This document shows positions 2,291-37,193 of a DNA stretch of 64,000 nt, piece by piece. The position numbers were made by a program, and so were the translations under genes. How positions within the stretch are numbered: the first letter of the stretch is position 1; every line of letters starts with the position of its first letter. A model generated the notes under the pieces. The model was not told where the DNA came from and searched no databases. It saw only the letters and a list, made by a program, of their open reading frames with translations. This DNA is from Candidatus Electrothrix rattekaaiensis. Lineage in GTDB: Bacteria > Desulfobacterota > Desulfobulbia > Desulfobulbales > Desulfobulbaceae. Where the stretch lies: positions 992,001-1,056,000 of the forward strand of contig JAVQMD010000002.1 of the NCBI GenBank assembly GCA_032595675.1. The letters run 5' to 3'.

Positions 2291-3226
2291 ATGCATTTCT
2301 TAGATGTAAAAACCGATTTCGCCTTTAAAAAGGTCTTCGGTAGTGAGCAGTCGAAGAATGTACTGATAAGCTTCCTCAATGCGATCATTGATTTCGGCGA
2401 GGAACGGGTCACCGACCTGACCATAGTTGATCCCTATCAGATCCCTCTGCTCAAGGGCATGAAGGATAGCTATGTGGATGTTAAGGCGGTGCTCTCGAAT
2501 CAGAGCAAGGTCATTGTGGAGATGCAGGTGCTCAATGTGGAGGGGTTTGAGAAAAGAGTGCTGTATAATGCAGCAAAGCTCTATTCGACCCAGCTGAAAA
2601 AATCCGGGAAGTATACAACATTGGAGCCGATTATCGCCCTGACGCTTACGGATTTTGAGATGTTTCCTGAATTCGCCAAGACGATTTCTTACTGGAATCT
2701 TCGGGAACGTGAAGTCCTTCTTCAATACAGCAATGATATTGAACTCATTTTTGCGGAATTACCCAAGTTTACCAAAACAGAAGCGGAACTTTCCTCCATC
2801 ACCGATAAATGGTTGTACTTTGTGAAACATGCCGGTGATCTGGAATTCGTGCCAGAATCATTTACCGAACCTCAACTGCTGGAAGCCTTTGATATTGCCA
2901 ATACTGCTGGCTTGAGCGAGGAGGAGTTGGATATCCAATTCAAACGACAGGATTTTATTGCCATGCAGCAAGGTGCATTGGAAAAGGCCGCTAAAGATGG
3001 ACTGGCCCAAGGTCTTGCCAAGGGCCTTGAGCAAGGTATTGCCAAGGGCCTTGAACAAGGTATTGAAAAAGGGCTTGAACAAGGGCTTGAGCAGGGAGTC
3101 GCCCAAGGAAAACTGGAGACGGCCCGAAATATGCTGCGTGATCAGATTCCTCTGGAAACGATCTGTAAATATACCGGGCTCGACAAAGAGATAATTGAGC
3201 AGCTGCGGCAGAGAGATGAAGAATAA
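2291..3226 (+). CDS. Rpn family recombination-promoting nuclease
   Basis: This 311-residue protein belongs to the PD-(D/E)XK Rpn/transposase-like family. Asp63 and the EMQ motif at 77-79 form the nuclease core (D-x13-E-x-Q). The N-terminus DVKTDFAFKKVFG is the family hallmark. The C-terminus, about residues 236-270, is a run of GLxKGLEQG octads that probably form a coiled coil, followed by a short helical tail. Rpn proteins make DNA breaks and promote RecA-independent recombination; some take part in phage defence. The gene sits immediately upstream of an orphan sdhB, which may reflect a past rearrangement. Confidence 0.88.
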   Translation: MHFLDVKTDFAFKKVFGSEQSKNVLISFLNAIIDFGEERVTDLTIVDPYQIPLLKGMKDSYVDVKAVLSNQSKVIVEMQVLNVEGFEKRVLYNAAKLYSTQLKKSGKYTTLEPIIALTLTDFEMFPEFAKTISYWNLREREVLLQYSNDIELIFAELPKFTKTEAELSSITDKWLYFVKHAGDLEFVPESFTEPQLLEAFDIANTAGLSEEELDIQFKRQDFIAMQQGALEKAAKDGLAQGLAKGLEQGIAKGLEQGIEKGLEQGLEQGVAQGKLETARNMLRDQIPLETICKYTGLDKEIIEQLRQRDEE

Positions 3227-3248
3227 TTACAGACAGGAAAATAAGGCA

Positions 3249-4010
3249 ATGGCGGCAAAAAATATATCCATCACAGTAAAGATCTGGCGACAGGCAAATG
3301 AAACCGCAAAAGGCTATCTGGAAACCTATGCGCTAAAGGAGATCAGCACGGATATGTCCTTTCTGGAGATGCTGGACGTTCTGAATGAACAGCTGACGCT
3401 GGAAGGAAAAGAACCTGTGGTCTTTGATCATGATTGCCGGGAGGGAATCTGTGGTACGTGCGGAGCCGTGGTTGACGGAATTGCCCATGGGCCGGAACAG
3501 GGAACGACTCTTTGTCAGCTGCATATGCGTCATTTTAAGGACGGGCAGGTAATCTGCATTGAACCCTTTCGCGCCAAGGCCTTTCCCCTGGTAAAAGATT
3601 TGATGGTGGATCGTTCTGCTTTTGATCGAATCATTCAGGCAGGCGGTTTTGTCTCGATTAATGCAGGGTCTGCCCCGGATGCCAATACGGTCGCGGTGCC
3701 TCAGCAGCAGGCGGAGCAGGCAATGGATGCGGCAGCCTGTATCGGCTGCGGGGCCTGCGTTGCTTCCTGTCCCAATGCGGCGGCCATGCTCTTTACTTCA
3801 GCCAAAATATCGCAGCTGGCCCTTATGCCCCAAGGGCGACCTGAACGGAAACGGCGGGCCTTATCTATGGTAGGGGCTATGGATGAGGAAGGATTCGGTT
3901 CGTGCAGCAACCACCGGGAATGCGAGCAGGTCTGCCCAAAGGGAATTTCTATCCGTCATATTGCCCGAATGAATCGGGAGTACCTTGCAGCGACTTTGTT
4001 TGGCGAGTAA
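3249..4010 (+). CDS. sdhB: Succinate dehydrogenase/fumarate reductase iron-sulfur subunit
   Basis: A 253-residue iron-sulfur subunit that passes electrons between the flavoprotein SdhA and membrane quinone. It has a plant-type 2Fe-2S motif (CREGICGTC, with a fourth Cys in TLCQ), then a 4Fe-4S motif (CIGCGACVASCP) and a 3Fe-4S motif (CSNHRECEQVCPKG). Sequence style matches the non-classical B subunits found with SdhC-A-B sets in Desulfobacterota and Campylobacterota. I place the start at ATG 3249, after AGGAAAATAAGG, rather than at an upstream in-frame codon lying inside the Rpn gene. Neither sdhA nor sdhC is adjacent; an Rpn gene occupies their expected place. Confidence 0.9.
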   Translation: MAAKNISITVKIWRQANETAKGYLETYALKEISTDMSFLEMLDVLNEQLTLEGKEPVVFDHDCREGICGTCGAVVDGIAHGPEQGTTLCQLHMRHFKDGQVICIEPFRAKAFPLVKDLMVDRSAFDRIIQAGGFVSINAGSAPDANTVAVPQQQAEQAMDAAACIGCGACVASCPNAAAMLFTSAKISQLALMPQGRPERKRRALSMVGAMDEEGFGSCSNHRECEQVCPKGISIRHIARMNREYLAATLFGE

Positions 4011-4099: not shown

Positions 4100-6433
4100 A
4101 TGAAAAAATCAATAGGCATAGACCTCGGGACCACCAACTCTGTTGTTGCCGTCAAAAAGGTGAGCACAGAGGTTCTCAAGAACGCAGAGGGTGAATACAT
4201 CACACCCTCCTGCGTGATGGTGAAAAAGCGCCTGATGCGCAAGCCGGAATTCATTGTTGGTCGTGATGCTCTGGAGTGGCTGCGCCAGGAACCGGAACAT
4301 ACCATAACAGCGGTTAAGCGGCTCATCGGTCGAAATTTCCATGAGAAAGAGGTGCAGGAGCTGATCAGCAAGCAAAGTCTGCCCTATCAGCTTTCCACCC
4401 ATTCACGGGGATCAGCTAATAGTCTTGCTCTTCAGATCGGCGGCAGAGAATTTACTCCAGAAGAGATTTCCGCCAAGATCCTGGCCAAGCTGAAAACAGA
4501 TGCGGAAGCCGTTCTTGGCGACGAGGTTGATGCCGCAGTTATCACGGTGCCAGCCTATTTCAATGATAAGCAGAAACACGGGACGAGAACAGCAGCTGCC
4601 TTGGCTGGACTCAAGGTACGTCGTCTTCTGCCGGAGCCCACTGCTGCGGCAATTTCCTTTGGAGTTGATAAAATATCCGGCGATGATGGACGAACCGTGC
4701 TGGTCTTTGACTTTGGCGGCGGCACCTTGGATCTCTCCATCCTTACCATCAGCGGCGGTCGGATCATCGAGATGGGCAAGGGCGGTGATATGTGGCTGGG
4801 CGGTGAAGATATTGACCAGTTGCTGATCGACTATGTTTTGGAGGAGACGGCAAAAGAAGAGGGCATTGCGGATATCCGTGCCCTGATTGAGCAGCAGAAA
4901 CCGGCCCGGAAAAATAAGTTCCTTGCCGAACTGAAGACTGCTGTGGAAAAGGCCAAGATCGCCTTGAGCGATCAGGAGGAGACCTGTATTGAAATCCTCG
5001 GGGTGCTGCTGGATCAGGACGGAGATCCTCTTGATGTTGAGGTGGAACTGCCACGCACTCGTTTCGATGTCATGATGACTTCCTTGCTTGAATCTATGCT
5101 GGGGCTGGTCCGAGGCGTGATTGCTGATGTCCATTTTACCGAAGACCTGATTGATAATGTGCTGCTTGTCGGGGGAAGCTCCCGCATCCCCTGCGTTATT
5201 CATGCCTTGCAGAAGGAGTTCGGACAGAAAAAAGTGCTGCTGCACGAACGCCCTATGCTCGCTGTTGCCGAAGGGGCAGCTATCCTCAGTCATCGTCTTG
5301 CAGATACGGTTGAATGCCCCCAATGTACCAGAAATACGGCGCAGAATGTCACCACCTGTTCGCATTGCGGTTTTGATCTGGAGGGGCATACGATAGAACA
5401 CGGGGTTGTTGAGATCGTGCATGCGGCTGCCCATGATTATTATATCAAGCTGGAGAATGATGAACGCTTCCTGATGGTGGAAAAAAACACCCCGCTGCCC
5501 TGTTCCAGCACCGAGGTCTTTCAGCTGGTTGATACGGAGCAGGAACTTATCCACATGAAGTTTTATAATGTGGTCAACAGGAAAGAGCAGGGGATCGGGG
5601 ATCTTTGGCTGGGCATTGATCGGGACGAAGAACAGGGAAAAAAGGAGGAGGAAGATGCGCCTCGGAAGCCTGTGATGCCTTCCCGGATTGAAATTACCCT
5701 GGATATTGATGAAAATAATCTCGTTTCCGTCAATGCGTCCCTACTGAATCATCCTGAGATAGCGATTTCAAGAACGCTGTCTCGCGGACATGCAGATGAA
5801 AAACTCTTTCTTGAGCTTGAACAGGCGATTGCCGATGCTGATAATAAGCAATATTCCGCCTATACCATCATTGACTTGCAGAACCGGGCACGGTCTCTCA
5901 TTCAATCCATTAACGGGGTTGTTGATCCGAAAAACGACACAGTGGATGAGCAGCGATATGAGCAGGCCCGCAACCAAATTCACAAGGCCATCAAAATTGC
6001 GGCCAATGAAGAAGCTCCTCTGACCCAGCTCTACTACGCGGAAAGTATGCTGGATGATTACGCCGTGTTGATTGAGCCGAGGATCCAGGAGCAGCTTAGG
6101 GACAAGATAGAACGGCTGCGTCAGGTTGATGAAAACGGCTCATATGAGCAGACGATGCGGGCTTCTGTTGCCCTTTCTGCGGCCTTGGATGATAAAAGGC
6201 TTGCTCAGGTCAACACCCTGATGCAGATAGAAAACGCCAGTGAGATTTGCTTTACAACCTATCCGGGCAAGGCCAAGAAATTTCTGCGGGTTATTTCCGA
6301 GGTTCTGGAGGCCGCTGAAAAACAGGATGGTTCTGTGGAGGAGAAGCTGCAAGCCATCCTGCCGGAGGTGGATGAGGTTCTGGAAAATTATGCTCTGAGC
6401 ACCCGGAAAATCCACAGGGATATTCGGAAATAA
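4100..6433 (+). CDS. Divergent Hsp70 (DnaK-like) with an internal zinc ribbon
   Basis: A 777-residue Hsp70. The nucleotide-binding domain (about 1-390) has the phosphate loop DLGTTNS at 8-14, the second phosphate motif DFGGGTLD near 203 and the adenosine motif LVGGSSRIP near 356. A C4 zinc ribbon (Cys406, 409, 420, 423) sits where canonical DnaK has its linker. A beta-rich substrate-binding region (about 440-570) and a long helical tail follow; there is no C-terminal EEVD-like motif. It is longer than DnaK (about 640) and is not housekeeping DnaK. It heads a cassette with its own J-like and GrpE proteins, so it probably works with those and a specialised client. Confidence 0.9.
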   Translation: MKKSIGIDLGTTNSVVAVKKVSTEVLKNAEGEYITPSCVMVKKRLMRKPEFIVGRDALEWLRQEPEHTITAVKRLIGRNFHEKEVQELISKQSLPYQLSTHSRGSANSLALQIGGREFTPEEISAKILAKLKTDAEAVLGDEVDAAVITVPAYFNDKQKHGTRTAAALAGLKVRRLLPEPTAAAISFGVDKISGDDGRTVLVFDFGGGTLDLSILTISGGRIIEMGKGGDMWLGGEDIDQLLIDYVLEETAKEEGIADIRALIEQQKPARKNKFLAELKTAVEKAKIALSDQEETCIEILGVLLDQDGDPLDVEVELPRTRFDVMMTSLLESMLGLVRGVIADVHFTEDLIDNVLLVGGSSRIPCVIHALQKEFGQKKVLLHERPMLAVAEGAAILSHRLADTVECPQCTRNTAQNVTTCSHCGFDLEGHTIEHGVVEIVHAAAHDYYIKLENDERFLMVEKNTPLPCSSTEVFQLVDTEQELIHMKFYNVVNRKEQGIGDLWLGIDRDEEQGKKEEEDAPRKPVMPSRIEITLDIDENNLVSVNASLLNHPEIAISRTLSRGHADEKLFLELEQAIADADNKQYSAYTIIDLQNRARSLIQSINGVVDPKNDTVDEQRYEQARNQIHKAIKIAANEEAPLTQLYYAESMLDDYAVLIEPRIQEQLRDKIERLRQVDENGSYEQTMRASVALSAALDDKRLAQVNTLMQIENASEICFTTYPGKAKKFLRVISEVLEAAEKQDGSVEEKLQAILPEVDEVLENYALSTRKIHRDIRK

Positions 6434-7584
6434 TGCCTGACCGGTTAACCTGTCCTGTCTGTGAACGACCGGGTGTTTCTCCTGATAGCAAGAAATGTCC
6501 GCAATGCGATGCGGATTTGACCTGCTTTCAGGCCTTGGATACTCTGGCTGAGCAGTCAGCAGCGGAGGGGCTCGCAGTACCTGCAAACATGGCAGAGAAG
6601 GCGGGGAGAGGAAGCAATCGGCGTACTGTTCTTCTCCTTGTACTGCTTCTTGTCCTTCTTGCAGCAAGTTTTTTCTTGTTCTCCTTAAAGGCAAAGGACC
6701 GTGTGTCCGACCTGAATCAACAGGTGATCGCCTTAAAGACGGATCTCAAGAGAACTCGGCAGAACAAAGATCTGCCCGAACAGGTGTTGTGCGTCCTGCC
6801 TGATTCTGAGAAAATTGGTTCCGTCGAAAAAGATACCTTTGAAGAGGATGATCCGCTTATATACGAAGAGGATAAGGTAAAGGATAAGGTGAGGGATAAG
6901 TCGAAGAAGACCTTATCAAAATCATCCGAATCATCCGAATCATCCGAATTATCCACGTCAGCCAAAGTCGGTGGGGCAGAGAAAGCAGTCGTTGCCTCTG
7001 CTGCGTCAGAAGGAGATGCAGCAGAAGGAAATGTAACAGAAGGAGAGGGAGCAGGGCAGGAGGCAGCAGCCAGCGATAGTGCGGAGAGTGTACCAATCGT
7101 CGTCGTAGAGGCCGTATCTAAGAAAATAGAACTTGGTCGGTCCTCTGAAGATGAGGGCGCAAAGGCGGAGGAACCTCAAGTCATCAAGTCCTCGCCCTTG
7201 CTGCCTGAAGAAAGATGGTCGGAGAGAACCTTTTTGTACCTGATCAAGGAAACCGATACCTTATGGGATCTTGCTGAGCATTTTTACGGTGACGGCAAGT
7301 ATTATCCCGTGATCATGGAGCAGAATCCAGGTCTTGTTATCAGTGACATCCATGATGAAGAAATTCTGCGTCTTTTTAATGAACGCACCGTGCTGGAGGA
7401 TATTTATAAACGCCGGATAGAATGGCGGGATGGCTTGGTGCTGTGGAAGCATAAGGTTGGGACTGGAGAAACACGACAATCCATAGAGAATCGTTTTGCT
7501 TCTCCCGGCTCTTCCGGTAGAGTATTTTACGAGAAAGCACCGGATATTCAGCCCGGCGCAACGGTTCGGATTATCTTGCACTGA
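6433..7584 (+). CDS. Zinc-ribbon, single-pass membrane protein with LysM-like domain
   Basis: A 383-residue protein whose start overlaps the Hsp70 stop by one base (TAATG), so the two are translationally coupled. The N-terminus has a C4 zinc ribbon (Cys7, 10, 22, 25), then one transmembrane helix at about 65-85 and a short coiled coil. A long Glu/Ser/Ala-rich linker follows. The C-terminal domain from about residue 265 (YLIKETDTLWDLAEHFYG) resembles LysM and may bind peptidoglycan. The orientation suggests a cytoplasmic ribbon, possibly pairing with the Hsp70 ribbon, and a periplasmic LysM. It would tether the chaperone to the envelope; that is an inference. Confidence 0.75.
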   Translation: MPDRLTCPVCERPGVSPDSKKCPQCDADLTCFQALDTLAEQSAAEGLAVPANMAEKAGRGSNRRTVLLLVLLLVLLAASFFLFSLKAKDRVSDLNQQVIALKTDLKRTRQNKDLPEQVLCVLPDSEKIGSVEKDTFEEDDPLIYEEDKVKDKVRDKSKKTLSKSSESSESSELSTSAKVGGAEKAVVASAASEGDAAEGNVTEGEGAGQEAAASDSAESVPIVVVEAVSKKIELGRSSEDEGAKAEEPQVIKSSPLLPEERWSERTFLYLIKETDTLWDLAEHFYGDGKYYPVIMEQNPGLVISDIHDEEILRLFNERTVLEDIYKRRIEWRDGLVLWKHKVGTGETRQSIENRFASPGSSGRVFYEKAPDIQPGATVRIILH

Positions 7585-7653
7585 GTTTTGCACTGAGTTG
7601 AGAGCCGGTAAGAGTGGATAAGGAGAAAGACCGTATTAAGGGGCTTGAACAGG

Positions 7654-9117
7654 ATGGGCAGGATGGCAGGAAAAACGCAGAACACCTCATCGTCATTTTT
7701 GAAAAAAGCAGAGGCCCCGAATTCCCTTGCAGCTTGTTGCCGATCTTTGTCCTTGATCCGACTTTGGCAGGAGGGACGAATCCGAGAGATCAGAGAGGTC
7801 AGCTTGGAGTCGGATTTCTTGCATCCTGTTGTGTTGGAACTGCACGCAAAGGCTGCCTATGCGGTGTTACAGGAAGAGGGCAGACAGGCGGAGCCTGCTG
7901 AGGTACGGCATTTTATTGATTGCTGGCTCTCTTTTCTTTTTCAGCCAACGCTGTTTCGTTCTTTGCCGAGAAAGCAGGAGGACGCGGAACAACAACAGCT
8001 TGATCGCCTTGGTCGTCTTGGTCGTCTTGGTCGCCAAGATCTGCTTGAGGCTGGCGAGAAGCTGGTGCGAAAATATGCTGAGCAGCAGGAAGACTGTGGT
8101 GAGCAGTTTATCCGGCATTGGGAGGAGGATTCTGCTTTGCTCAAGATTCTTTCCGGTATGAAAAAGGAGGAAGAGGAAATACCGCTCTATACCCCGGCCT
8201 TGGCAAGGCAGAGCGGAATTGCTGACCAGGTTTTTGCTCTTTTTTTTAAGGATATGCAGGGGCGGCAGAATGCCTTTGCAGATCAAGAAGGTTTTCTAGC
8301 AGCCGGTGCGCTGTATTCTGCGGTTGGCCCCGCCCTTCTGCTGGTTCGAAAAGGCCAATATGATGCAGCGAGCAACGAGCTGATCTCTCTGAAGAAAAAG
8401 GGTGCGGAAAAGAATGCTAATTTGTTTGTAAGCTACGGCCTTGCCCGTGTTAACATCGCATGTGGGCTTCAGTTGTTGGACCAGGGGCATTACGAAGAGG
8501 CGGAGAAAATGCTCATTAAGCTTCTGCCGCTCCCTTTGCATTCTTCCCGGCTGGAGCAGGAACTGCTTGTTGTCCTTGATCGAGACGACAAGTATCTGGA
8601 TCTGGATTGGCTGGCTGTAAGTATGCATGTTTTGAGTGACATGCACAAACTTTGTCCTACGAAGAGTAAGGAAGTGGAGAGGGCACTCTGCTCCGTGTTG
8701 ACGCACCACGCTGTTTTGTTGCATCGTGAAGGGGCAATTGACGGGAAGGTTTTTCTGAGCTCAATGGAAAAGGCGGTCAGCCTGAATCCAAATGATGAAT
8801 TCGCTCGCATAACCTGTGATGATGCCCGGATGGATGCGGAAATCCTTTCCTTGCACCGGAATATGAGTGCTGGCAAGCTGACTAAGGCATCACGGATTGC
8901 GAAAAAAAGTTCCTACCAGGAGGTGGCGGATCAGTTTTTTATCTTTGCTGCTCAGGTGATGGCGCAGGTTGAAGCCGAGGATTATCCAGATGATGAATCA
9001 GCTTTTTTTATGGTCCGTCAGCTGCTGGAGGGTGCGTTGCAGGTTGATCCTGAGCACCGAATGGTGCAGGAGATTGCTTGGCTCCTGGATGACCTCGAAG
9101 AACGACTAGAGGAGTAG
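7654..9117 (+). CDS. Helical-repeat protein of the Hsp70 cassette
   Basis: A soluble, largely alpha-helical protein of about 487 residues. I choose ATG 7654 because AAGGGG lies ten bases upstream; a TTG nine bases earlier would leave no room for that site. The middle and C-terminal parts contain TPR-like helical pairs (for example GHYEEAEKMLIKLLPL, and a later AVSLNPNDEFARI), but no repeat is canonical. Such proteins usually bind partners or clients. It lies between the membrane-anchored zinc-ribbon gene and the J-like gene on the same strand with short gaps, so it is probably part of the same operon and complex. Confidence 0.7.
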   Translation: MGRMAGKTQNTSSSFLKKAEAPNSLAACCRSLSLIRLWQEGRIREIREVSLESDFLHPVVLELHAKAAYAVLQEEGRQAEPAEVRHFIDCWLSFLFQPTLFRSLPRKQEDAEQQQLDRLGRLGRLGRQDLLEAGEKLVRKYAEQQEDCGEQFIRHWEEDSALLKILSGMKKEEEEIPLYTPALARQSGIADQVFALFFKDMQGRQNAFADQEGFLAAGALYSAVGPALLLVRKGQYDAASNELISLKKKGAEKNANLFVSYGLARVNIACGLQLLDQGHYEEAEKMLIKLLPLPLHSSRLEQELLVVLDRDDKYLDLDWLAVSMHVLSDMHKLCPTKSKEVERALCSVLTHHAVLLHREGAIDGKVFLSSMEKAVSLNPNDEFARITCDDARMDAEILSLHRNMSAGKLTKASRIAKKSSYQEVADQFFIFAAQVMAQVEAEDYPDDESAFFMVRQLLEGALQVDPEHRMVQEIAWLLDDLEERLEE

Positions 9118-9140
9118 AGGATGAGAAGATTAGAGGCCCT

Positions 9141-9446
9141 ATGAATCCCTATAGGCTTTTGAATATCACCCCGGAGGCCACACCTCGGGAGATTGTGCAG
9201 GCTTCAGCATTAGCCTTACGGGAAAATAAGCATTCTGCTCGCGATATTGCTGAAGCGAGAAAACAGCTTATGAGTCCTGCGACCAAGTTCATCCTTGATT
9301 TCGTCCACACCGTTGATCTTGAGCCGCTCCTTGATGATATAAAAAAGGGGTTGGGTGAACTGGAAGAGAGGGAGGAGAGCGAAATAGTCGATTTGGTTAA
9401 AATGATTGATTTGGAACGATTGGACATTTTTGACAAACAGGTATGA
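9141..9446 (+). CDS. J-domain-like protein lacking HPD
   Basis: A 101-residue protein. The first 55 residues follow the J-domain layout: a NPYRLLNITPEATPREI opening, helix II, a short loop, then a helix III ending in the MSPATKF segment that matches the usual LSDPxKR region. The loop that should contain His-Pro-Asp, essential for stimulating Hsp70 ATPase, reads KHSARD. The C-terminal 40 residues are acidic and helical. It may have become a scaffold or a J-like regulator for the neighbouring Hsp70. It overlaps the longest grpE-like frame, and the grpE start follows within a few bases. Confidence 0.7.
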   Translation: MNPYRLLNITPEATPREIVQASALALRENKHSARDIAEARKQLMSPATKFILDFVHTVDLEPLLDDIKKGLGELEEREESEIVDLVKMIDLERLDIFDKQV

Positions 9447-9450
9447 CCGT

Positions 9451-9942
9451 ATGACCATGTCAAAGCAGGGAGAACAGACAGCCCCGGATGCCTTATTACG
9501 GGAAAAACTGATCGGGTTTCAGCGAGAAATCGCTGAGCTCAAGCAAAGCAACAAGGAGCAGGAAGAAGCAGCGGAACAGCGAGAGCAAGAGTTGCTTTTT
9601 GGCCTTTTTGAGGTCTTGGATGCCTTTGACAACCTGGAAAAGAATATTCAGGGTAAAGAGGGGCTCCTGGATAAGACAGGCCAGCGTTATGTGAAGAGCA
9701 CCCGCGCGGTGCAGCGAAAACTTCTGCGCCTGCTCCGATCCCGCCATGTGGAACCGTTGGAATTCCTGGATAACAAGGCCAGGATGGAGCAGTGCAAAAT
9801 TATTGCCACCCAAAATGATCCGGCTTTGGAAAACGAAGAGATCATCTCCGTGGAGAAAAAAGGGTATATGGAGACCGAGTGCAAGAGGATCCTCCGTAAG
9901 GCCGAGGTGGTGACGGTGTGCAATGACACCGCTCTGGGGTAA
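9451..9942 (+). CDS. grpE: GrpE-like nucleotide exchange factor
   Basis: A protein of about 163 residues with GrpE layout: an N-terminal coiled coil (about 15-60), then the exchange domain with helices and a C-terminal beta wing (EEIISVEKKGYM, then RILRKAEVVTV). I place the start at ATG 9451, with an ACAGG site ten bases upstream; ATG 9457 is also possible. It would release ADP from the divergent Hsp70 encoded by the first gene of the cassette. Sequence is diverged from housekeeping GrpE, consistent with a dedicated paralogue. The last 57 bases of its 3' part are duplicated exactly at 10662-10718. Confidence 0.85.
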   Translation: MTMSKQGEQTAPDALLREKLIGFQREIAELKQSNKEQEEAAEQREQELLFGLFEVLDAFDNLEKNIQGKEGLLDKTGQRYVKSTRAVQRKLLRLLRSRHVEPLEFLDNKARMEQCKIIATQNDPALENEEIISVEKKGYMETECKRILRKAEVVTVCNDTALG

Positions 9943-9948
9943 AAAAAA

Positions 9949-10242
9949 TTATTTTAAGGATGAGGGCCATTTCATGGAGGTGTGCAGGATTCGAAGAATA
10001 ATGACATCACTGTTTTGTTCGAGATAGGGAATAATATACGGTAAACCTGCGATAACCAATTCTCTGGTTCCGGTAACTCGACCTGGTCTTCCGATTCCAG
10101 GCTGATCTGCAAGAAGTTCGACAGACTCTCTTATTGTTTGGGCGACTTTTTGTGCAGCCGCAGGATTATCTGCCGCAATATACTCTACTGCCGCATCAAG
10201 GTTTTCAAGTGCTTTGTTTGTCCATCTAATCCGCATTGACAT
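9949..10242 (-). CDS. ParE/RelE-family toxin
   Basis: A 97-residue toxin of the RelE/ParE superfamily. MRIRWTNKALENLDAAVEYI is the typical first strand and helix, a PGIGRPGRVTGTRELVI segment forms the central strands, and YIIPY plus VIILRILH supply the C-terminal strands. ParE members poison DNA gyrase, RelE members cleave mRNA on the ribosome; the sequence looks closer to ParE. It is downstream of, and overlaps by 17 bases, the antitoxin gene. The pair is inserted on the opposite strand between grpE and rph and is bordered by a duplication scar. Confidence 0.88.
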   Translation of the reverse strand: MSMRIRWTNKALENLDAAVEYIAADNPAAAQKVAQTIRESVELLADQPGIGRPGRVTGTRELVIAGLPYIIPYLEQNSDVIILRILHTSMKWPSSLK

Positions 10243-15481: not shown

Positions 15482-15733
15482 GATCTTTTAAAATCCAAGC
15501 CTCGCCTTTTTAAAGTAAGCCATGACTTTTAAAAAGTCACGACCCTGTTTTAAAAAATGAGGTCTCACCTTTAAAAGGAGAGTCCTCTTCTTTTAAAATA
15601 TAGCGTCCACTTTTTAAAGATGAGGGCTTACCTTTAAAAATATAGTGCCCACTTTTTAAAGGTGAGGGGTTGGAATTAAAAGCATGGCACCCACCTTTTA
15701 AAGGTGAGTCCCCTTCTTTAAAAAATAGGCCCG
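15482..15733. repeat. Degenerate 21-bp tandem array 2 with TTTTAAA core
   Basis: Twelve consecutive units of exactly 21 bp (starts at 15482, 15503, 15524 and so on to 15713). Each has a T3-5A3-6 core flanked by short C/G-rich segments; ACTTTTTAAAGGTGAGG is a representative part. The core gives in-frame TAA codons and no long frame crosses the array on either strand, so it does not encode a protein. The exact period persists although the flanks vary, which suggests selection or slippage at the DNA level. The stretch 15284-15481 before it holds no gene that I can see. Confidence 0.88.
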
Positions 15734-15955: not shown

Positions 15956-16330
15956 TCAAATTGTGCATCTCGTTTTATCACAATTACGGGGCTTTTTTTC
16001 GACCACTCTACTCGCCTCGTCCAGATCGCAAGCAGAAGTATGATGCACAGTAGAGTAGATAACAGCAACAAACTTACCTTTAACTTTCTTCGGTAATAGA
16101 TGGATCTGCATATTATCTTTCATCAATCCTGCCCCTATTTTCCTGTCCGTATTGTTAAGAAGATTGACAGCAGCATGGAACGCCTCATCAGCAGTATTTC
16201 CATACGCTTTGAAACAATCGTTATCGGCAGCAAAAGCAGAGGATACAGAAAAAATACAGGCAAAAGGAGTAGCGGCAATTAAAAATGCAGCTATGGTGAG
16301 ATCTCTCTTGAGAGTAGTGGTGTTTTTCAT
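15956..16330 (-). CDS. Small exported protein under a riboswitch
   Basis: A 124-residue protein with a signal peptide (hydrophobic stretch about 11-33, cleavage near SAFAA-D). The mature part, about 90 residues, has four Cys (in NDCFKAYG, TSACDLDEA, PRNCDKTRCT) that could form disulfides in the periplasm or outside. A strong GGAGGAATGTT ribosome site precedes the ATG. I do not recognise the family. The 5' leader carries a GEMM-like aptamer, so expression is probably set by a cyclic dinucleotide, which would link it to surface lifestyle, motility or extracellular traits. Confidence 0.75.
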   Translation of the reverse strand: MKNTTTLKRDLTIAAFLIAATPFACIFSVSSAFAADNDCFKAYGNTADEAFHAAVNLLNNTDRKIGAGLMKDNMQIHLLPKKVKGKFVAVIYSTVHHTSACDLDEASRVVEKKPRNCDKTRCTI

Positions 16331-16360: not shown

Positions 16361-16440
16361 AGTAGGTAACTCGGCTATCTCTTAAAAGAGACCCGTGGCT
16401 TTCCGACACCGCTTCGCAACGGCTGTGGTCTTATCAACTT
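16361..16440 (-). ncRNA. Probable cyclic-di-GMP-I (GEMM) riboswitch
   Basis: On the minus strand the leader has a P2 hairpin CCGTT-GCGA-AGCGG with a GNRA tetraloop, then GGAAAGCCACGGGTCTC, a stem closed by TTTTAA, and AGAGATAGCCGAGTTACC. The AAAGCCACGGGTCTC and AGCCGAGTTACC blocks match the 3' half of the GEMM-I aptamer, where the P2 tetraloop docks into a receptor in P3. The segment before P2 (GACCACAG) is shorter than the usual GGCAAACC version, so a variant ligand such as cGAMP is possible. The ATG is about 30 bases downstream. An 8-bp hairpin (CTTTCTGG/CCAGAAAG) lies just upstream of the aptamer. Confidence 0.55.
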
Positions 16441-30255: not shown

Positions 30256-30591
30256 TTACTCAGGAATACGGACAGCCGGCACGGGAACACGGACAGCCGG
30301 CACGGGAACACGGACAGCCGGCACGGGAACACGGACAGCCGGCACGGGAACACGGACAGCCGGCACGGGAACACGGACAGCCGGCACGGGAACACGGACA
30401 GCTGGCACGGGAACACGGACAACCGGCACGGGAACACGGACAGCCGGTGCTTGACTGGCAGAAGCAGCGGGAGGCTTAAAAAACAATAACAACGAAACAA
30501 GAAAAAGAACGATACACAGCCTTATCATATCTAATGATTGTTTTTGGATACCTGCCCCCTCGTGCTGCTCAATAAGTTGTAAAAAACTCAT
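30256..30591 (-). CDS. Membrane or secreted heptapeptide-repeat protein encoded by array 4
   Basis: A 111-residue frame starting at ATG 30591, five bases after a perfect GGAGG. A hydrophobic helix (about 25-41, IVLFLVSLLLFF) with a possible signal-peptidase site AASAS-Q is followed by about eight AVRVPVP heptads encoded by the 21-bp array. In this frame one unit variant is synonymous and another is Ala to Val. The strong ribosome site and export signal favour real translation, unlike the other arrays. The repeat part would be an extended Pro/Val-rich stalk. Function is unknown. Confidence 0.55.
   Translation of the reverse strand: MSFLQLIEQHEGAGIQKQSLDMIRLCIVLFLVSLLLFFKPPAASASQAPAVRVPVPVVRVPVPAVRVPVPAVRVPVPAVRVPVPAVRVPVPAVRVPVPAVRVPVPAVRIPE
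30268..30456. repeat. 21-bp tandem array 4, nearly perfect
   Basis: Nine units of ACGGACAGCCGGCACGGGAA plus C, exactly 21 bp each. Two internal units have single substitutions and the last diverges after CCGGTG. It is GC-rich and far more uniform than arrays 1-3, so it is the youngest. Frames are open in several phases. Confidence 0.95.
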
Positions 30592-32404: not shown

Positions 32405-32823
32405 AACCCTTGTTGATGACGCAACCTTCCTTGCTGATAGGCAACAGATCCTTGTTGATAGCTGACAACCTTCCTGCAAGAGCAAACAACCTTCTGTTGA
32501 TAGCTGCGAACCTTTTGTCAGTAACAAATAACCTTCTGTTTGTTACCAACAACCTTCCTGCAAGAGCAAACAACCTTCTGTTAAGAGCTGCGAACCTTTT
32601 GTTAGTAACAAATAACCTTCTGTTTGTTACCAACAACCTTCTGTTAGCAGCAAACAACTCCTTGTTTGTTACGAACAGCTTCCTGTTAGGAACAAAATAC
32701 CTTTTGTTTGCTCTTAACAACCTTCTTTCAACAACAAACAACTCTTTGTTGGTTATCACGAACCTTCTGTCAGGAACAAAGAACCTCTTGTTATTAACCG
32801 ACAACCTTCTTGTAATAAGCTAT
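32405..32823. repeat. Degenerate 21-bp tandem array 3 with TTGTTA/TAACAA dyads
   Basis: About 20 units; from 32467 onward the spacing is exactly 21 bp (32467, 32488, 32509, 32530 and so on to 32803). The common start is AACCTTCTGTT and several units carry the dyad TTGTTAGTAACAA. A higher-order pattern is present: a block of four units starting at 32488 recurs at 32572. A minus-strand frame reads heptads such as TNRRLFV, but it lacks a good start and SD. No gene is supported in 32824-33037. Confidence 0.88.
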
Positions 32824-37088: not shown

Positions 37089-37193
37089 CCCAGCCTTGAA
37101 AGGCTGGGCTATTTTCGGCAGTCCCTTCGGGACGCTGTTTTGTCCACTGCCCCGGAGGGGCAATCGAACATAGCCCACCGTTTTAACGGTGGG
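37089..37193. repeat. Cluster of short palindromes between convergent genes
   Basis: Four hairpins lie in a row: CCCAGCCTT-GA-AAGGCTGGG (37089-37108), GTCCC-TTC-GGGAC (37121-37133), GCCCC-GGA-GGGGC (about 37149-37161) and CCCACCGTT-TT-AACGGTGGG (37174-37193). This looks like a composite REP-type intergenic element. It may also end both convergent transcripts. Confidence 0.8.

Follow-up and report, generated by a model that had tools for sequence, protein, structure and literature searches.

The 64,000-nucleotide window analysed here (contig 2, bases 992001-1056000) comes from the 4.48 Mb genome of a cable bacterium, Candidatus Electrothrix rattekaaiensis, and carries at positions 4100-9942 five tightly packed genes in succession on the + strand, which encode an Hsp70 with a built-in zinc ribbon, a zinc-ribbon protein with a membrane-like segment and a LysM region, a tetratricopeptide repeat (TPR) protein, a small J-like protein, and a GrpE-family protein (Table 1). 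The stop codon of the Hsp70 gene overlaps the ATG of gene 2 by one base, and the further intergenic gaps are 60, 23, and 4 bases long with the starts chosen in this analysis, that of gene 3 being uncertain. The original prediction for this DNA had named five such genes in tight order, and all of them are present at this place and on this strand. The operon is an Hsp70 machine of a new architecture.

Table 1. Coordinates in the window of the five genes and of the features in their products (aa, amino acids).
Feature	Position	Strand	Remarks
Gene 1, zinc-ribbon Hsp70 (777 aa)	4100..6433	+	Nucleotide-binding domain (NBD) aa 1-401, ribbon aa 406-423, linker-like segment, beta part of the substrate-binding domain (SBD-beta), long helical C-terminal region
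Hsp70 zinc ribbon CxxC-x10-CxxC	5315..5368	+	Between last NBD helix and linker
Hsp70 linker-like segment GVVEIVHAAAHDY, in position of DnaK VLLLDVTPLSLG	5402..5440	+	Alignment of 42 homologues and the genome's own DnaK; structural alignment
Gene 2, membrane/cell-wall protein (383 aa)	6433..7584	+	N-terminal zinc ribbon, one transmembrane-like segment, low-complexity spacer, C-terminal LysM region
Gene 2 zinc ribbon CxxC-x11-CxxC	6451..6507	+	51/51 homologues
Gene 2 transmembrane-like segment	6625..6681	+	Mean Kyte-Doolittle 3.0 over 19 aa; about aa 65-83
Gene 2 LysM domain	7237..7350	+	PF01476, aa 269-306, below Pfam cut-off
Gene 3, TPR/helical-repeat protein (490 aa, start uncertain)	7645..9117	+	TPR matches
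Gene 4, small J-like protein (101 aa)	9141..9446	+	J-domain-like fold aa 1-58 (predicted), HPD absent
Gene 5, GrpE-family nucleotide exchange factor (163 aa)	9451..9942	+	PF01025

The five genes are a conserved module that is kept together as a unit. A search with two short sequence patterns gave 90 matches, 40 of which were confirmed as relatives with the C-terminal part of the Hsp70, and because only these two patterns were used, distant relatives may escape the search. These 40 loci, 13 further loci and the window make up the set of 54 loci used here, from which L035, L036, and L040 are excluded as repeats of genomes among the 40. All five genes occur in the same order and on the same strand in 30 of the 31 loci in which the sequence extends 5.5 kb or more past the Hsp70 gene, and in the 23 shorter loci either all five are present (10 loci) or the order is kept from gene 1 up to gene 4 at most (13 loci). 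It had been proposed that the synteny be checked in other genomes, and the genes thus adjoin elsewhere too; a chance neighbourhood is ruled out by the common order in the loci with sufficient room. No flanking gene family is common to more than five loci, and those five belong to one genus. Between the five families, pairwise distances are correlated (r 0.76-0.92 for 37 of the 40 five-gene loci, compared without a control gene), and such a correlation among the families of an operon is also expected from any shared descent. In one locus (L044, CSMAG_1653, upstream of 8705), the cassette adjoins, in opposite orientation, a housekeeping dnaK as placed by the tree described below and a gene that looks grpE-like by eye, and in Desulfobacter latus (L072, upstream of 4414) a very divergent Hsp70-like gene of 606 aa lies about 1.1 kb away on the opposite strand.

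The operon occurs in cable bacteria and in scattered relatives. In the family of the window, which was searched like the class of Desulfonema magnum, the Spirochaetota, and the nine-genome group around L073 and L075 with a profile built from 22 of 34 sequences, 13 of 73 genomes have the operon Hsp70. Among these are all eight genomes of Electrothrix, the genus of the window, and four of the five Electronema genomes, the fifth being 69% complete, so that 12 of the 13 genomes of the two cable-bacteria genera are positive; the rest of the family contributes the single genome of genus g288 and none of 59 genomes in all other genera. True copies were found in three of 116 genomes of an order sample, the other 104 matching genomes having weak matches, apparently to DnaK, and in two of 395 genomes of a phylum sample, one of which is the genome of the window. 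The Spirochaetota gave one positive genome in 247, which the pattern search had already found, and the nine-genome group gave three, two of them already known. In the class of Desulfonema magnum, 22 of 340 genomes were positive for gene 1, at least two of which were already among the pattern-search loci, 20 were positive for gene 4, and 18 for both. In the genomes with gene 1 only (G855, G944, G970, and G1108), the contigs break off inside the Hsp70 gene or no more than 3.1 kb past its end, whereas those with gene 4 only are a 4.6-kb contig beginning inside the operon (G1123) and a remnant without gene 1 in which gene 2 is cut and genes 3 and 4 are broken (G1045). Carriers beyond the cable bacteria include Desulfobacter, Desulfocapsa, and Desulfonema magnum, while the loci from Spirochaetales, Elusimicrobia, and Schekmanbacteria stem from metagenome-assembled genomes and could result from faulty binning. 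The C-terminal part of the Hsp70 is, by best segment, 88% identical to that of the window in E. marina, 85% in E. aarhusensis, 80% in the metagenome-assembled genome S24.Bin023, and 73% in E. gigas. Multicellularity, considered as the factor common to cable bacteria and Desulfonema, was dropped because the operon is also found in genera such as Desulfobacter, which we take to be unicellular.

Gene 1 clearly belongs to the Hsp70 family (PF00012, E 2e-106) and contains the zinc ribbon that had been predicted for it, here with four cysteines, but it misses the NCBIfam cut-offs of the DnaK equivalog (TIGR02350, 354.5 versus 822.55 bits) and of HscA (NF003520, 283 versus 620 bits; TIGR01991, 277.9 versus 708.55 bits). 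The housekeeping dnaK of the same genome lies on another contig behind its own grpE, and the two Hsp70 proteins are 38% identical in the NBD (145/377) and 21% in the remainder (51/248). In a tree of NBDs, calculated in 'quick' mode without bootstrap, with some long rows and with no HscA, HscC, or other divergent-Hsp70 references, the branch that separates 31 zinc-ribbon Hsp70s from 28 DnaKs, with which a single further divergent Hsp70 is placed, has a support of 98 in the Shimodaira-Hasegawa-like approximate likelihood ratio test. That the protein could be the sole housekeeping DnaK, which the original prediction had named as the outcome speaking against it, is ruled out by the TIGR02350 score, the separate dnaK, and the split in the tree. 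The residues of the ATP site, D8, T11, K70, E171, D194, T199, and D201 (numbering of E. coli and roles as we assume them), are invariant in all 42 homologues aligned. In the alignment with the genome's own DnaK, R167 is kept, which in DnaK presumably contacts the J domain and the linker, whereas R151 is replaced by K and N170 by P or S.

In 53 of the 54 loci, the zinc ribbon of gene 1 is encoded within the Hsp70 frame, and in the remaining one (L077), where the frame is broken, it is located in the second piece. The VLLLD motif of the DnaK linker is replaced by the ribbon plus a segment with the consensus [VIL]x[DE]IVH[AS]AAHDY, which has a few exceptions per position among 42 homologues. In the pattern-search loci this constancy is partly given by construction, because part of the motif was a search pattern, but the family and class hits came by profile and so were not chosen by the linker motif. 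An AlphaFold model of the Hsp70 has a mean predicted local distance difference test score of 86, and comparison of its NBD with Hsp70 NBDs gives a Z of about 47. DnaK 1-393 is aligned structurally over model residues 1-441 (2.0 A, 387 residues), and DnaK in the stimulating state over model residues 2-561 (5.2 A, 487 residues), with sequence and structure alignments about two residues apart at the linker. These ranges suggest that, in the predicted structure, docking of the linker-like strand on the NBD is still possible while the ribbon loops out.

Gene 2 encodes a protein that had been described as zinc-ribbon/membrane/LysM-like, and all three parts recur among its homologues. Its ribbon is present in each of 51 homologues, and L076, L077, and L079 have no gene 2 match because the contigs end there. 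A hydrophobic segment passes a simple hydropathy threshold in 50 of the 51, the exception being the 753-aa version of L136, of which only the first 160 residues were covered. The LysM match of the window copy is below the Pfam cut-off (16.6 versus 20.9 bits), but LysM is found at E<=0.1 in 17 of 19 relatives scanned (of 38 sequences), with a best value of 8e-14. Judged against shuffles only, the ribbons of the Hsp70 and of gene 2 are alike in sequence beyond their cysteines: under a hidden Markov model of the Hsp70 ribbon, the gene 2 ribbons have a median of 11.1 bits versus 2.0 for shuffles with fixed cysteines, and 82% of the 51 lie above the 95th percentile of 1019 such shuffles, a control that contains no natural unrelated ribbons; generic zinc ribbons may share such residues. 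Docking of the two proteins through these ribbons, as suggested by the original prediction, is a hypothesis. With the LysM region behind the hydrophobic segment, it is likely that gene 2 tethers the system to the envelope, and the envelope-tethered machine of the original prediction is to this extent a likely function that we infer from the sequence.

The product of gene 3, predicted as a helical-repeat protein, is a TPR protein: TPR_19 is found at E<=0.1 in 27 of 29 members scanned (of 34), with E 0.013 for the window copy, the N-terminus of which is shorter than that of a 678-aa relative in G140. Within this gene, at 7999-8033 of the window, there is a minisatellite with a 9-base unit (CTTGGTCGT, 3.9 copies) that codes for LGR repeats. 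Gene 5, the predicted GrpE, has a PF01025 match above the cut-off (E 1.8e-11, 44.5 versus 25.8 bits; 17 of 28 homologues were used in its alignment), stays below the GrpE equivalogs of NCBIfam (best 23 versus 137 bits), and is the second GrpE locus in the genome.

The window copy of gene 4 has no Pfam J-domain match, while PF00226 is found at E<=1 in 15 of 29 relatives scanned (of 30), the best value being 8.4e-5. Helices are predicted at residues 3-7, 15-28, 33-44, and 46-57, and residues 1-58 of the model match known structures with Z up to 9.4 (root-mean-square deviation 2.2, 58 residues aligned), a value that can also come from common helical arrangements. Of 50 structural matches listed, 39 have the titles of J-domain or Hsp40-type proteins, while the other 11 titles denote chains of large complexes or are unclear; Foldseek gave a probability of 1.0 with a best E of 0.066. 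An hhalign comparison with five J-domains of the same genome covered only 19 columns with a probability of 71, which is weak alone. The HPD motif is absent from the J loop between helices II and III in all 42 homologues, the sole HPD string (in L080) being in the C-terminal tail. The J-like character that had been proposed thus stands as a J-domain-like predicted fold, but not as a J-domain with HPD, and without this motif the protein should not be a normal ATPase activator. The five J-domains encoded elsewhere in the genome all have HPD, and two of them are in proteins with transmembrane-like segments.

Compared with known systems, the operon shares with DnaK-DnaJ-GrpE an NBD with full ATP site, SBD-beta, a helical lid, and an exchange factor of the GrpE family, but its Hsp70 has the ribbon at the junction of NBD and linker, lacks VLLLD, has a longer helical C-terminal region, and branches separately, while the operon contains a J partner without HPD and additional TPR and membrane/LysM genes. 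DjlA is a membrane-anchored bacterial J-protein, and systems of this type resemble the operon in that Hsp70 work is brought to the membrane; the same genome also has an HPD-containing J-protein with a transmembrane-like segment (L083). There, however, the J-protein itself is the tether, whereas here the ribbon/LysM protein would have this role. A review, in the sections available, names DnaK, HscA, and HscC as bacterial Hsp70 types, suggests a role of HscC at the plasma membrane together with the tail-anchored DjlB and DjlC, and infers that HscA and HscC work without a nucleotide exchange factor (PMC8215388). The operon resembles these systems as a divergent second Hsp70 with dedicated partners, but differs from them in that a GrpE is part of it. 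Many bacterial paralogues beyond these three types are already known, as for example among the 15 Hsp70 proteins given for Myxococcus xanthus in the available sections of a paper whose main text contains none of the words 'zinc', 'GrpE', and 'TPR' (PMC8265645).

The closest analogue is the presequence translocase-associated motor (PAM) of mitochondrial import, with mtHsp70, Mge1, Pam18, Pam16, Tim44, and the zinc-finger escort Hep1/Tim15. In the accessible parts of the respective papers, it likewise combines an Hsp70 and a GrpE-type factor with a degenerate J-like subunit, a membrane-side tether, and a zinc finger acting on NBD plus linker (PMC5773037, PMC4890766). Hep1 is described there as a separate zinc-finger protein with NBD plus linker as its minimal target on mtHsp70 (PMC4890766), whereas the ribbon of the operon is built into the Hsp70. 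Among the five genes there is, in contrast to the PAM, neither a Pam18-like J-protein with HPD nor a Tim44-like or translocon gene (the rest of the genome was not searched for Tim44 or Pam18), and the likeness of gene 4 to Pam16 is that of a degenerate J-like subunit. No description of a five-gene zinc-ribbon Hsp70 operon was found in the open-licence literature of PubMed Central that was searched. DnaK, Hsp70, GrpE, and LysM are absent from the main texts of three cable-bacteria genome papers (PMC11976967, PMC13047784, PMC11247825), and the word 'zinc' is missing likewise from the main texts of PMC8910936 and PMC11019930.

That a dedicated Hsp70 machine distinct from DnaK-DnaJ-GrpE would be encoded here, as claimed by the original prediction, is well supported on the level of sequence by the synteny, the separate dnaK and grpE, and the split in the tree. 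Probably, the five genes form an operon that is complete in itself and encodes a specialised Hsp70 machine, which acts on the cytoplasmic side of the inner membrane. Step by step, we infer the localisation of the gene 2 product, the interactions, and the clients as follows. The gene 2 protein would span the cytoplasmic membrane, its ribbon facing the cytoplasm and its LysM region bound to peptidoglycan, and would therefore anchor the machine to the envelope. The Hsp70 ribbon, situated at the point at which movements of the NBD reach the linker, may be a docking handle, an allosteric handle, or both. Gene 4 as a pseudo-J protein would occupy or organise the J site without triggering ATP hydrolysis, similar to Pam16, and an HPD-bearing J-protein of the host would supply the ATPase trigger. 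The TPR protein may bind or deliver clients or scaffold the complex, the GrpE would reset the Hsp70, and possible clients are proteins that are being inserted into the membrane or transported across it. In its furthest form, this proposal would make the operon a convergent bacterial counterpart of the PAM motor: an envelope-anchored Hsp70 that has a Hep1-like ribbon built in at the linker, is gated by an HPD-less pseudo-J, and is reset by a GrpE of its own would transport or retain proteins at the cytoplasmic membrane and would represent an own Hsp70 lineage besides DnaK, HscA, and HscC, but this extension is doubtful. Hsp70 proteins couple ATP to the binding of clients by means of a switch, the linker between their two domains, and a zinc ribbon exactly at this linker, together with a kept ATP site and a co-inherited pseudo-J and GrpE, would be a natural experiment in the re-wiring of this switch. 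The operon, found in nearly all cable-bacteria genomes examined, is also a pointer to a bacterial Hsp70 machine on the membrane side.

Several points weigh against a membrane-side machine of five parts. In one locus with sufficient room (L045, UBA5173), genes 1 and 2 are followed by unrelated genes, with genes 3-5 absent behind, and the J-fold match of gene 4 is moderate. LysM can occur in cytoplasmic proteins, and the best NCBIfam match of gene 2 is PRK11198 (27.1 bits versus a cut-off of 134), which we take to be a cytoplasmic protein. The number of K and R residues before the hydrophobic segment is higher, which favours an N-in orientation, in 32 of 51 homologues, equal in 11, and lower in eight, and thus gives a weak indication of topology. 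Scans of the window for promoters (7 versus a mean of 6.4 in shuffles), terminators (10 versus 7.8), and the CIRCE site (none at up to 3 mismatches to the motif as we assumed it) gave no clear signal. With no CIRCE site in the window at that limit, a CIRCE-controlled heat-shock operon is rejected.

The lack of a regulatory site in these scans also argues against a soluble stress-specific Hsp70 system, in which the ribbons would be redox or metal sensors and gene 2 an envelope sensor. When zinc is lost under stress by oxygen, sulphide, or metals, the linker coupling would change and the Hsp70 would be switched on or off. Such a role would suit the position of one ribbon at the interdomain linker and the second on a membrane protein, and most named hosts belong to sulphate-reducer or cable-bacteria lineages, whose corresponding lifestyle we presume. 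It would also suit that Hep1 acts on NBD plus linker of mtHsp70 and needs zinc, as stated in the available part of PMC4890766. However, the operon is missing from most genomes of the family and of the class examined and is therefore not a general stress system of anaerobes, and ribbons can be purely structural, so that the sensor function is rather unlikely. If the machine served one particular envelope structure, such as fibres, pili, or cytochromes, instead of having a general membrane-side function, it should hardly occur in Desulfobacter, Desulfocapsa, and others, from which, to our knowledge, conductive fibres are not known. No neighbouring gene family is common to most lineages, which also makes such a client-specific role improbable, although gene 2 reaches towards the peptidoglycan and the operon is present in both cable-bacteria genera, which possess periplasmic conductive fibres (PMC11976967, in the text available).

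A defence or conflict module, with an Hsp70-based complex that protects the envelope from phages or toxins and is spread by transfer, would agree with the patchy distribution and with the neighbourhood of the operon in the window. At 2291-3226 there is a PDDEXK_2 transposase-family gene (PF12784, 2.5e-47), and the upstream genes at 1561-2228, which from their translations we take to be an antitoxin/PIN-type toxin pair, as well as a presumably methyltransferase-like gene near the cassette, can be counted on the same side. But none of the five proteins matches a PADLOC model at E<=1, no flanking family common to at least three loci looks defence-like by eye from the first residues, and no relative was confirmed in plasmids or, by pattern search, in viral contigs, where 13 stretches matched the pattern. 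A defence-system identity is rejected on these grounds, and as the operon is also so regularly present in the two cable-bacteria genera, a defence function is very unlikely.

The PDDEXK_2 gene, an internal repeat of which codes for KGLEQG, is also found upstream of the cassette in the Electrothrix loci L041, L042, and L078. Directly upstream of the Hsp70 gene, at 3243-4010, lies a gene for the iron-sulphur subunit of a succinate/fumarate dehydrogenase (NF005746, 424 bits), a neighbour seen in five loci, all of this genus, and right behind the cassette, on the opposite strand at 9949-10242, there is a small gene that we assume from its translation to be RelE/ParE-like. Further away in the window, a c-di-GMP-I riboswitch (16362-16439, - strand, 51.9 bits) is situated about 30 bases upstream of a small gene (15956-16330, - strand) whose product has, by eye, a signal-peptide-like start. 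Two matches to the Acido-Lenti-1 RNA (37089-37134, + strand, 43.9 bits; 37148-37193, - strand, 40.0 bits; gathering threshold 37) are oriented towards each other with 13 bases between them. Arrays of 21-, 42-, and 84-base repeats are found at 281-521, 15549-15708, 30263-30447, and 32408-32810, the array at 30263 comprising 8.8 copies at 96%.

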